Source: Rhodopseudomonas sp. (GTDB lineage Bacteria; Pseudomonadota; Alphaproteobacteria; Rhizobiales; Xanthobacteraceae). Taken from it: 64,000 nucleotides of DNA. Under the pieces are notes generated by a model. It saw only the letters and a program-made list of their open reading frames with translations. It searched no databases and had not been told where the DNA came from. Of this stretch, positions 53,702 through 58,780 are shown in pieces. Numbering within the stretch: the stretch's first letter is position 1; every line of letters begins with the position of its first letter. The position numbers and the translations under genes were made by a program. The stretch is from contig WGNB01000020.1 of assembly GCA_016124795.1 (NCBI GenBank), positions 1 to 64,000 on the forward strand, read 5' to 3'.

Positions 53702-54844
53702 TCAATCCCAGGCCAGCGCGCCGCCGTTTTGATATTCGATGACGCGGGTCTCGAAGAAGTTCTTTTCCTTCTTCAGGTCCATCGCTTCCGACATCCAGGG
53801 AAACGGATTTTCGGCGTCGGCAAAGACCGGTGCCAGACCCAGCTGCGCGCAGCGCCGGTTGGCGATGACGTGCATGTATTGCTCGCATAGGCCGGCGTTG
53901 AGGCCGAGCAGCCCGCGCGGCATGGTGTCGCGGCCGTAGGCGGTTTCCAGTTCGGCGGCTTCGACCAGCATGGCGCGGACTTCCGCCTGGAAGGCGTCGG
54001 TCCAGAGCCGTGGGTTCTCGATCTTGATCTGATTGATAACGTCGATGCCGAAATTCAGGTGAATCGATTCATCGCGCAAGATGTATTGATACTGCTCGGC
54101 GATACCGACCATCTTGTTGCGCCGGCCAAGCGACAGAATCTGCGCGAAGCCGGTGTAAAACCACATTCCCTCGAATACGACATAAAATGCGATCAGGTCG
54201 CGCAGGAATGCCTGATCGGTTTCCAACGTGCCGGTCTTGAAGCTCGGATCGTCAAGATGCTGCGTGTGCTTGAGCGCCCAGGCCGCCTTGTCGGTGATCG
54301 AGGGGACTTCCCGATACATGTTGAACAGCTCGCCCTCGTCGAGGCCGAGGCTTTCGACGATGTACTGGAAAGTGTGGGTATGCACCGCTTCCTCGAAAGC
54401 CTGTCGCAACAGATATTGCCGGCACTCCGGATTGGTCAGGTGGCGGTAGATCGCCAGTACGATGTTGTTGGCGACCAGCGATTCCGACGCGGCGAAGAAA
54501 CCGAGATTGCGTTTGACGGTGCGGCGCTCGTCCTCGGTCAGGCCGTCGCGCGATTTCCAGAGCGCGATGTCGGCCTGCATTGAGACTTCGGTCGGCATCC
54601 AATGATTGTTGCAGCCGGCGAGATATTTCTCCCAGGCCCAGCGGTATTTCAACGGCAGCAGTTGATTGACGTCGGCGCGACAATTGATCATCGCCTTTTC
54701 ATCGACGCTGACGCGGCCGCCTGAGCGTTCGATGACGCCGAGGCCGGCGGCATGGTCGTCGTCAGTTGTCACGATAGACGTTGCGACAGACAATTGTTCG
54801 GCGGTGGTCCTTCGGGCAGCCGGTTCTGACCAATCGAGCATCAT
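53702..54844 (-). CDS. nrdB: Ribonucleotide reductase subunit beta, class Ic type
   Basis: The 380-residue R2 subunit supplies the oxidant used by NrdA to make deoxyribonucleotides. The metal ligands can be followed: E121 in the ASESLVANN segment (Glu as in class Ic, Asp in E. coli), E152 and H155 in EEAVHTHTF, then EGMWFYTGF and [10 protein letters not shown]. The position of the radical Tyr (Y122 in E. coli, four residues after the first His) is F159. Phe here is the hallmark of class Ic R2 proteins, which use a Mn(IV)/Fe(III) cofactor, first described in Chlamydia trachomatis. It lies 118 bases behind nrdA across a family C repeat. Confidence 0.93.
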
Positions 54845-54962: not shown

Positions 54963-57824
54963 TTACTGGCAGGCTTCGCAGGTCGGATCGTCGAGCCGGC
55001 AAGCCTGACCTTCGATCAGGATCGGTGCCGACGACATGGACGTCGATGCGACTGGGGCGGTCGACACCGCGTTAAGCTTGCCGTCGGTGCCTTTGAGCGT
55101 CGATTTCTCGACATGGGTCGCGCTGCGTGAGCGCAGGTAATAAGTCGTCTTCAGGCCGCGATCCCAGGCCAGTTGGTAAAGCTGGTCGAGTTTTCGGCCG
55201 TTCGGCGCGGCGATATAAAGATTGAGCGACTGCGCCTGATCGATCCACTTCTGCCGGCGCGCGGCGGCTTCGATCAGCCAGGCCGAATCGATTTCGAAGG
55301 CGGTGGCATAAAGTGCCTTGAGATCGTCAGGGATGCGGTCGATTGGGCCGACGCTGCCGTCGAAATATTTCAGGTCGCTGATCGTCACTTCGTCCCATAG
55401 TCCGCGCGCCTTGAGATCGCGCACCAGGTAAGGGTTCACTACCGTGAAATCGCCCGACATGTTCGATTTGACGTAGAGGTTTTGATAGGCCGGTTCGATC
55501 GACTGCGACACGCCGCAGATGTTGGAGATAGTCGCGGTCGGCGCGATTGCCATGGTGTTGGAATTTCGCATGCCCTGGCTTGCGACGCGTTTGCGCAAGG
55601 TCGCCCAGTCCAGCGTCGAGGTGTTGTTGAGGTCGAGCGTGCCGCGCGCTGCGCCGACCATGTCGACCGAGTCGATCGGCAGGATGCCGCGGCTCCATAA
55701 CGAGCCTTCGAATGACGGATAGCGCCCGCGTTCGGTGGCAAGATCGGAGGAGGCGGCGATGGCGTGATAGCTGATCGCCTCCATGCTCTCGTCGGCGAAA
55801 CGCACCGCCGCGTCCGACGCCATCGGCACCCGCAGAATTTGCAGCGCGTCCTGGAAGCCCATCAGGCCGAGTCCGATCGGGCGATGCCGCAGATTGGAGC
55901 GGCGTGCTTCCGGTATGGTGTAGAAGTTCACGTCGATGACATTGTCGAGGATCCGGATCGCGGTCTTCACCGCGGCGGCCAGCTTGTCGCGGTCAAGCCC
56001 TTGCGGCGTGACGTGGTTGACCAGATTGACCGAACCGAGATTGCAGACCGCGACCTCGTCATCCGAGGTATTGAGCGTGATCTCGGTGCACAGGTTCGAT
56101 GAGTGCACCACGCCGCAATGCTGTTGCGGCGATCGGATGTTGCAGGGGTCCTTGAACGTGATCCAGGGATGGCCGGTTTCGAACAGCATGGTCAGCATCC
56201 GCCGCCACAGGTCGACCGCGCGTAACTGCTTGGATACTGCAATCTCGCCGCGCGCGGCCTTGGCTTCATAGTTTTCGTAAGCCGCCTTGAAATCAGGCCC
56301 GTAGAGGCCGTGCAGATCGGACGTTTCGTCGGGCGAGAACAGGGTCCAGACGCCGTCCTGCTTGACGCGCTGCATGAACAGGTCGGGCACCCAGTTGGCG
56401 GTGTTCATGTCGTGGGTACGGCGGCGGTCGTCTCCGGTGTTCTTGCGCAGGTCGAGGAATTCCTCGATGTCGACGTGCCAGGTTTCGAGATAGGCGCAGA
56501 CCGCGCCCTTGCGCTTGCCGCCCTGGTTGACGGCGATGGCGGTGTCGTTGGCGACTTTCAGGAACGGCACGACGCCTTGCGATGCGCCATTGGTTCCATT
56601 GATGTGGGCGCCGAGCCCGCGCACGCGGGTCCAGTCATTGCCGAGGCCGCCGGCGTATTTCGACAGCAGCGCGTTGTCCTTGACCGACTTGAAAATGCCA
56701 TCGAGATCGTCCGGCACGCTGGTCAGGAAGCACGACGAAAGCTGCGGCCGCAACGTGCCGGCGTTGAACAAGGTCGGTGTCGAGCACATGAAATCGAACG
56801 ACGACAGCAGGCGATAGAACTCGATGGCACGTGCCTCACGGTCGATCTCGCGCACAGCGAGCCCCATCGCGACCCGCATGAAGAAGGCTTGCGGCATCTC
56901 GAAGCGGGTTTCGCCGCTATGGATCAGATAACGGTCGTACAGCGTTTGCAGGCCGAGGAACTGGAAAGCGCGGTCGCGCGCCGGTTCGATGGCGGCGGCA
57001 AGACGCGCCAGATCGAAGCGCGCCAGTTCCGGGTCGAGCAGTTGCAGGTCGATGGCGCGTTTGACGTAAGCCGGAAAATAGCCGGCATAATCGAAGCGCC
57101 CTGACAGTGCGGTCCGGTGGACGAAAGCGTGGGCCTCGTCCGACAGCTTGTCGAGTAGCAGATTGGCGCTGACATAAGCGTAATTCGGTTCGGCTTCGAT
57201 CAGCACGCGCGCGGCCATGATCTTGGCCAGCGTCAGTTCGTCTTGCGACATGCCGTCATAGATGTTGCGTTTGATCTCGATCATGACGGCGCCGGCGTCG
57301 GTGCCGTCATAGCCAGCGCAGGCGGTCTCGATCGAAGACGCGACAGCGGCCATGTCGAGTGGCCGCAACTGGCCGTCGGCAAGCTTGATGCGCATGGCGG
57401 GTGCGGCATCGGCTGCAGCGATGGCGCGTTCGGCTTCGCGGGCCTGAGCGCGTTCCTCGCGATAGAGCACATAGGCGCGTGCCACCTTGTGGTGCTCGCT
57501 GCGCATCAGCGCCAGTTCGGCCTGATCCTGGATATCCTCGATGTGGAAGGTGCGGCCGTCGCCAGCGCGGCGCATCAAGGCGGCGACCACCTGATCGGTC
57601 AGTTGAGCGACCGCCTCGTGAATGCGGCGCGACGCCGCGGCGCTCTGGCCTTCGACGGCGAGGAAAGCCTTGGTCAAGGCGACCGTGATCTTGGCGGCAT
57701 CGAACGGCGTCACCGCGCCGTTGCGGCGGATAACCTGATAGGCCGGTTCGGGATTGTGCCGCGGCTGCGGCAATGTGCCGAGCGGGATGATTGGCGAAAC
57801 GGAAGACTGAATGACGATGGACAT
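54963..57824 (-). CDS. nrdA: Ribonucleotide reductase subunit alpha with two ATP-cones
   Basis: The catalytic R1 subunit has 953 residues, longer than E. coli NrdA (about 760). A complete ATP-cone (about 28-130; VIRRNGAVTPFDAAKI to VARAYVLYREER) precedes a second cone-like segment (about 145-230) that aligns with the single E. coli cone. The barrel contains QLSSCFLTS, SSNLCTEITLN with catalytic Cys and Glu, and VAVCNLGSVNL. The radical-transfer Tyr pair is in KTTYYLRSRSATH, and the redox-active C-terminal cysteines are in DPTCEACQ. Start ATG 57824 is chosen over GTG 57833. Expression is probably controlled by the upstream cobalamin riboswitch. Confidence 0.93.
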   Translation of the reverse strand: MSIVIQSSVSPIIPLGTLPQPRHNPEPAYQVIRRNGAVTPFDAAKITVALTKAFLAVEGQSAAASRRIHEAVAQLTDQVVAALMRRAGDGRTFHIEDIQDQAELALMRSEHHKVARAYVLYREERAQAREAERAIAAADAAPAMRIKLADGQLRPLDMAAVASSIETACAGYDGTDAGAVMIEIKRNIYDGMSQDELTLAKIMAARVLIEAEPNYAYVSANLLLDKLSDEAHAFVHRTALSGRFDYAGYFPAYVKRAIDLQLLDPELARFDLARLAAAIEPARDRAFQFLGLQTLYDRYLIHSGETRFEMPQAFFMRVAMGLAVREIDREARAIEFYRLLSSFDFMCSTPTLFNAGTLRPQLSSCFLTSVPDDLDGIFKSVKDNALLSKYAGGLGNDWTRVRGLGAHINGTNGASQGVVPFLKVANDTAIAVNQGGKRKGAVCAYLETWHVDIEEFLDLRKNTGDDRRRTHDMNTANWVPDLFMQRVKQDGVWTLFSPDETSDLHGLYGPDFKAAYENYEAKAARGEIAVSKQLRAVDLWRRMLTMLFETGHPWITFKDPCNIRSPQQHCGVVHSSNLCTEITLNTSDDEVAVCNLGSVNLVNHVTPQGLDRDKLAAAVKTAIRILDNVIDVNFYTIPEARRSNLRHRPIGLGLMGFQDALQILRVPMASDAAVRFADESMEAISYHAIAASSDLATERGRYPSFEGSLWSRGILPIDSVDMVGAARGTLDLNNTSTLDWATLRKRVASQGMRNSNTMAIAPTATISNICGVSQSIEPAYQNLYVKSNMSGDFTVVNPYLVRDLKARGLWDEVTISDLKYFDGSVGPIDRIPDDLKALYATAFEIDSAWLIEAAARRQKWIDQAQSLNLYIAAPNGRKLDQLYQLAWDRGLKTTYYLRSRSATHVEKSTLKGTDGKLNAVSTAPVASTSMSSAPILIEGQACRLDDPTCEACQ

Positions 57825-57901
57825 CGGCGGCACCCCAGGTTTTGGGAGCGGGGCCGATCATGGACGCGCGTGACGACGTGCGTTGAGCGCGCACGCGCTT
57901 C

Positions 57902-57979
57902 GGCAACGACCTTCCGGGACACCCCGCCCGTGGACGAATCTTCTGTCAGGGCAGGTCTCCTGGCTTGCGGGTCGTTGCC
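57902..57979 (-). promoter_or_regulatory. Candidate switch helix of the riboswitch
   Basis: In the RNA, GGCAACGACC (57979-57970) inside the 3' part of the aptamer is perfectly complementary over 10 bases to GGTCGTTGCC (57911-57902) just downstream. Pairing would trap the B12 box in a loop and break the aptamer, giving a ligand-free alternative fold. The ligand-bound fold would free the downstream strand for another structure before the nrdA start. Confidence 0.5.
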
Positions 57980-58132
57980 TTCGTCCGGTCTTCCCGGAAT
58001 CTCGCGATTCCAGTGACGCTACATGGACATCGGCTCGCCGCTTACAGTTGCGGGGGCAGCTTCGGATTAAGCCCGGATAGGCCGTGACCGAATTCCCTCT
58101 TAGCTCCAGACCTTGCGATCTGGAGAACCATG
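57944..58132 (-). promoter_or_regulatory. Cobalamin (B12) riboswitch upstream of nrdAB
   Basis: Read on the minus strand, all landmark pieces of the cobalamin aptamer occur in order: a leading stem CTCCAGA/TCTGGAG, AGGGAATTCGGTC, GCTGCCCCCGCAACTGTAAG, GTCACTGG, CCGGGAAGACCGG and the B12 box AGCCAGGAGACCTGCC. It ends about 120 bases before the nrdA start. By analogy with known class B12 riboswitches it should lower nrdAB expression when adenosylcobalamin is plentiful. Confidence 0.95.
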
Positions 58133-58222
58133 ACAACTATATATGGGGCGATTGGGGTGGGTCGTGTCAAGCGGTTGGGGATGTTGTGCCCGCTATGCAC
58201 CGCCCGAGGGGCAACGTCGCGC

Positions 58223-58780
58223 TTACGGTTCCAGCTCGGTGTCCCAATAGAGATAGTCGAGCCAGCTTTCGTGCAGATAGTTCGGCGGAAACAGCCGGCC
58301 GTTGCGGTGCAGGTGATGCACTGTCGGCTGGAACGGCATCTGCGACGGATACATCCGTGCTTCCGCCATGGTCATGCTGCCCTTGCGCAGATTGCAGGGC
58401 GAGCAGGCGGCGACGACGTTTTCCCATGAGGTGATGCCGCCACGGGCGCGCGGAATGATGTGATCGAAGGTGAGGTCTTCGCGGTCGCCGCAATACTGGC
58501 AGGCGAAGCGGTCGCGCAGGAAGACGTTGAAGCGGGTGAAGGCCGGATGAGTCGACGGCTTGACGTAGGTCTTGAGCGAAACAACGCTCGGCAGCTTCAT
58601 TTCAAAGCTGGGACTGTGAACCGCGTGGTCGTAATTGGCGACGATGTTAACGCGATCGAGAAACACCGCCTTGATCGCGTCCTGCCAGGACCACAAGGAC
58701 AACGGGTAGTAACTCAACGGCCTGAAGTCGGCGTTGAGGACGAGGGCCGGATACCCGGCAGGCGAAACGTGCACGTTCAA
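58223..58780 (-). CDS. HNH endonuclease family protein
   Basis: The 185-residue protein has an N-terminal segment YPALVLNADFRPLSYYPLSLWSWQDAIKAVFLDRV typical of this HNH subgroup, and a zinc-finger-supported HNH core: CQYCG, TFDHIIPRARGG and CSPCNLRKG. These chromosomal HNH proteins are widespread in alphaproteobacteria as single genes and their physiological role is not established. It is not associated with phage or restriction genes here. It is upstream of the riboswitch in the same orientation. Confidence 0.9.
   Translation of the reverse strand: MNVHVSPAGYPALVLNADFRPLSYYPLSLWSWQDAIKAVFLDRVNIVANYDHAVHSPSFEMKLPSVVSLKTYVKPSTHPAFTRFNVFLRDRFACQYCGDREDLTFDHIIPRARGGITSWENVVAACSPCNLRKGSMTMAEARMYPSQMPFQPTVHHLHRNGRLFPPNYLHESWLDYLYWDTELEP

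Follow-up and report, generated by a model that had tools for sequence, protein, structure and literature searches.

The window, the whole 64,000-nucleotide stretch of Rhodopseudomonas sp. DNA analyzed here (contig WGNB01000020.1), carries a cobalamin riboswitch directly upstream of an nrdAB operon for a class I ribonucleotide reductase of the Ic (Phe) type, and the same genome encodes the B12-dependent class II reductase NrdJ. We consider it very likely that this leader represses the B12-free, oxygen-dependent nrdAB operon when cobalamin is plentiful, a ligand response that we infer from the sequence. NrdJ would then make the deoxynucleotides; with cobalamin in short supply, repression would lift and NrdAB would take over. 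The B12-free NrdAB is probably a backup for B12 shortage.

A cobalamin riboswitch upstream of a class Ic operon

An initial annotation of the window placed a cobalamin riboswitch at 57944-58132, directly upstream of nrdA on the same strand, and proposed a covariance-model search. Using cmscan, we found that the cobalamin family RF00174 matches the nrdA strand at 57933-58147, which encloses the proposed interval, with a score of 130.6 bits (E 1.5e-32; gathering score 31.5 bits) and with the model aligned end to end (positions 1-189 of 189). The three aptamer landmarks named in the annotation, CACTGG among them, are all found in the window, and the first gene 3' of the riboswitch on the minus strand is indeed nrdA (ATG at 57824), followed by nrdB. 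Every one of the 75 positions that proved near-invariant in a comparison of 62 related leaders is preserved in the window. The principal features are as follows.

58165-58170, minus strand: TTGACA, possible -35 element, conserved in relatives
57933-58147, minus strand: cobalamin riboswitch aptamer (RF00174; cmscan, full model)
54963-57824, minus strand: nrdA, class I catalytic subunit with N-terminal ATP cone (NF005544, 1651 bits; PDB 5im3; Pfam)
53702-54844, minus strand: nrdB, class Ic-type radical subunit (NF005550, 677 bits; alignment to 1syy)

The TTGACA element is present in the window and at loci L129, L139, L144 and L151; a sigma-70 scan gave no full promoter match to accompany it. Just 5' of the riboswitch, on the same strand, lies a gene with an HNH endonuclease domain (58223-58780, minus strand).

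The open frame of nrdA runs from 57833 to 54963, and comparison with relatives places the start codon at the ATG at 57824. NrdA is of the Pseudomonas aeruginosa type (match to PDB 5im3), with ATP-cone, lgN and lgC domains in Pfam. NrdB aligns with the Chlamydia trachomatis R2 protein (1syy) over 341 residues (450 bits), the numbering of the key positions differing by 32. Phe159 replaces the radical tyrosine and is aligned to Phe127 of 1syy, and the metal-ligand positions E121, E152, H155, E225, E259 and H262 are the six positions of Chlamydia R2, in the residue numbering of that protein. None of these key positions varies among 12 aligned sequences, and NrdB has its radical-site Phe and all six ligand positions in common with the class Ic reductase of C. 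trachomatis (1syy, 4d8f). By sequence, then, NrdB belongs to class Ic, as the initial annotation had it, and would be expected to carry a Mn/Fe cofactor.

NrdJ and the B12 economy of the genome

The annotation had also predicted that the genome encodes NrdJ. In the assembly (5.14 Mb in 76 contigs, 95% complete) there are two matches to TIGR02504. One is the NrdA of the window, which falls short of the cut-off; the other, above it at 565.8 bits, is a true NrdJ at G000:C71:128018-130384 (1247 amino acids). The prediction was thus correct.

One further cobalamin riboswitch occurs in the genome, 5' of a gene for a TonB-dependent receptor, which is probably BtuB.

L005:9871-11970 (G000:C57), minus strand: TonB-dependent receptor behind the second riboswitch

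Precorrin-8X methylmutase (CbiC/CobH) was not found in the 95% complete genome, and together with the riboswitch-linked receptor this makes B12 import probable. MetH is present; a search for full-length MetE returned only short MetE-like proteins. Several of these resemble the MetE C terminus (about 350-440 amino acids), among them G000:C34:66856-67878, C35:83070-84110 and C74:61352-62395. With MetH and no full-length MetE, the cell would still need B12 or methionine, so a backup reductase would spare B12 and would not free the cell from the need for it. Import of B12 and a need for it in methionine synthesis are thus both probable, although one missing marker in a 95% complete genome is no proof.

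Riboswitch integrity and the presence of NrdJ

Apart from the window's own genome, 36 of the 150 genomes of our family sample encode a class Ic NrdB, and at 35 of these 36 loci a cobalamin riboswitch lies 5' of nrdA on its strand. The one exception (genome G140, locus L094, the same as L144) also stands alone among the 36 genomes in lacking NrdJ, the sole TIGR02504 match there being its own NrdA. The riboswitch was therefore present in 35 of 35 genomes with NrdJ and in none of the one without. At L144 an 83-nucleotide remnant was detected. The leader can still be recognized in its 5' part, but it has lost the CCCCCGCAACTGTAA and AGCCAGGAGACC motifs and is changed at 31 of the 75 near-invariant positions. 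This decayed riboswitch before nrdAB is at L144:2750-3105, and the TTGACA upstream of it is retained.

At seven loci (L075, L071, L083, L095, L115, L133 and L150), the region upstream of nrdA holds two cobalamin riboswitches back to back, one on each strand. The nrdAB operon at these loci seems to share its control region with a divergent B12-related gene.

Class Ic NrdB is rare in an even, class-wide sample (2 of 384 other genomes), and for that reason named genomes were used for a wider comparison with NrdJ. We checked 80 named class Ic loci for both riboswitch and NrdJ; leaving out actinomycetes, loci short of upstream DNA and L169 gave a set of 59. Of the loci with NrdJ, 48 of 49 carry the riboswitch, versus 5 of the 10 that lack NrdJ (Fisher p 0.0003, with no correction for kinship; the loci are not independent, some assemblies are incomplete, and at least five genomes are common to the family and named samples). 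Three of the five NrdJ-negative loci that keep a riboswitch come from metagenome assemblies. Another NrdJ-negative locus with a riboswitch, L123, has 7 of 75 core positions changed, a changed L13 among them, and L137 (Erythrobacter tepidarius) has an apparently intact riboswitch and no NrdJ. Conversely, NrdJ is present and the riboswitch absent at L162 (Arboricoccus), and several actinomycete class Ic loci have NrdJ and no riboswitch above threshold. L169 (Pelagibacterium), a candidate NrdJ-positive exception with an NrdA fusion, was rejected, as its upstream sequence is a run of N. Taken together, these comparisons of genome sequences support a strong trend, with exceptions, in which loss of NrdJ accompanies loss or decay of the riboswitch, a trend that fits the backup logic.

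Further matches to the riboswitch profile (nhmmer) were seen downstream of nrdB on the same strand at L137:7662-7842, L121:8709-8888, L131:10190-10341, L136:7262-7419, L142:7241-7402 and L134:8051-8203.

Leader elements and the level of control

Three further elements of the leader bear on how the riboswitch may act.

58050-58057, minus strand: loop L5 of the aptamer, GCCCCCGC, found in 60 of 67 leaders (in the other 7, L5 was unmatched by the search pattern)
57922-57929, minus strand: L13 segment, GGGCGGGG, found in 66 of 67 leaders
57833-57848, minus strand: hairpin CTCCCA/TGGGG over the Shine-Dalgarno sequence, predicted pairing in the window

L13 is complementary in sequence to L5 (GCGGGG to CCCCGC) and may pair with it as a kissing partner. 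The Shine-Dalgarno sequence GGGGTG (57836-57831) ends six bases before the ATG at 57824, and a C-run and a G-run over the Shine-Dalgarno just before the ATG are common to the 67 leaders. When the platform only was folded, blocking L13 raised local pairing of the Shine-Dalgarno from 0.66 to 0.94 over the 67 leaders and lowered its accessibility from 0.13 to 0.03, compared with 0.09 when other stretches were blocked. In the window's own leader the predicted folds leave the Shine-Dalgarno covered whether L13 is blocked or free, so the switching step is one that we infer for this sequence. A Watson-Crick version of the hairpin with four pairs is found in 59 of 67 leaders versus 50% in shuffles, modest support because the region is C-rich; with G-U pairs allowed, a shuffle test of hairpin length did not discriminate.

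The hairpin suggests translational control. With cobalamin bound, L5 (CCCCGC) would pair with L13 (GCGGGG), and with L13 tied up the C-run before nrdA would be free to cover the Shine-Dalgarno. Without cobalamin, L13 could hold the C-run and the ribosome site would open. The riboswitch could instead stop transcription, by intrinsic or Rho-dependent termination; a good part of nrdAB transcription in Propionibacterium acnes ends before the first gene (PMC3848588), and Rho sites are invisible to the scan that we used. However, that scan found no intrinsic terminator in 57800-58300, and the conserved hairpin covers the Shine-Dalgarno right beside the start codon. We regard termination as unlikely, and control of nrdAB as most likely exerted at translation.

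The same switch on a Tyr-type enzyme

Four congeners carry another class I reductase, whose R2 shows about 30% identity, also with a cobalamin riboswitch. At the three of these loci that were read (L104, L108 and L112), the radical-site residue of R2 is Tyr, and leuB stands upstream of the operon. The leaders at L108 and L112 have the same L13 and a Shine-Dalgarno hairpin before nrdA, as in the window, whereas the enzyme differs not only in R2 and its radical-site Tyr but in a shorter NrdA and in its locus behind leuB. Six genomes of other genera of the family also have an R2 of this kind with a riboswitch. In one of the six, the riboswitch before the Tyr-type nrdAB at L109:3696-3866 (genome G024, NrdJ present) scores only 40.6 bits and is possibly a decaying copy. 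The initial annotation joined the switch to a class Ic enzyme, as seen here, but the pairing is not special to class Ic.

In the window's genome, the region downstream of leuB (L200, G000:C26:40000-52000) is collinear with that of two congeners on both sides, and neither a riboswitch nor nrdAB occurs in this leuB neighborhood, which is an empty site. In two further congeners NrdJ is present but nothing matched a class I enzyme. The pattern among congeners (Ic, Tyr-type or no class I enzyme beside NrdJ) indicates that the class I reductase is accessory to NrdJ in this group, and whichever class I type is present would come under cobalamin control.

Class I requires oxygen and NrdJ works without it, so labor could instead be divided by oxygen or growth state, with NrdJ serving at low oxygen, NrdAB under aerobic conditions, and the riboswitch as a minor trim. 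Dependence on MetH adds to this, as it makes growth without B12 unlikely unless methionine is present. Yet riboswitch integrity tracks the presence of NrdJ, and the two congeners with NrdJ do without any recognizable class I enzyme; we judge a division by oxygen quite improbable. The accessory standing of nrdAB, Tyr-type in congeners versus Ic here, also makes transfer plausible, and an aptamer tree, albeit poorly resolved, puts the window beside another Ic leader, L120. The riboswitch might then be a relic carried in with a transferred nrdAB cassette and have no present role here. We give this very little credence, since every near-invariant leader position is intact in the window, unlike at L144, where NrdJ is missing and the leader is visibly decayed. 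B12 supply, acting through the leader, remains the favored explanation.

On whether leader and enzyme move together, the aptamer tree is too poorly resolved to say. It may or may not be, with about equal plausibility, that riboswitch-guarded class I operons are exchangeable B12-backup modules in NrdJ-based bacteria, in which non-orthologous Phe-type Ic or Tyr-type enzymes sit behind the same kind of leader. The leader would decay after NrdJ is lost, and riboswitch integrity would read out which reductase is relied on.

Relation to known systems

In Streptomyces, a B12-controlled class I nrdAB operon backs up the class II NrdJ. The operon described here would play the same part. In P. acnes, nrdAB and nrdDG are under cobalamin riboswitches and nrdJ is not, and repression has been proposed when cobalamin is present (PMC3848588). 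That system has the same arrangement of B12-free reductases under cobalamin riboswitches beside a B12-dependent nrdJ, but P. acnes is an actinomycete with evidence of an early transcription stop, whereas the operon described here is from an alphaproteobacterium, encodes a Phe-type R2 and has a platform that is probably translational. Delta-proteobacteria with NrdJ have B12-elements before nrdDG (PMC545781), the same proposed logic of B12 repressing a B12-free isozyme, applied there to the anaerobic class III enzyme and here to an oxygen-dependent class I enzyme. A general B12 isozyme rule has been put forward (PMC2211319), and class Ic enzymes are already known from a range of bacteria and archaea (PMC3019208). 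We searched the literature for a riboswitch joined to a class Ic reductase; the class Ic passage of PMC4428469 does not join them. B12 repression of B12-free reductases has thus already been described, and the link to class Ic appears to be new.

The B12-gated choice of reductase would thereby extend to a class Ic enzyme. The arrangement is near-universal for class Ic in the sampled family and in most sampled Hyphomicrobiales, and it is also present in Acidobacteria and some actinomycetes. Genomes that have lost NrdJ serve as natural experiments on a riboswitch becoming useless and decaying, and the association of riboswitch integrity with NrdJ across genomes merits following up. A possible reason for environmental bacteria to retain a Chlamydia-type enzyme also emerges: such an enzyme would spare B12, perhaps in an importer unable to make B12 for itself.
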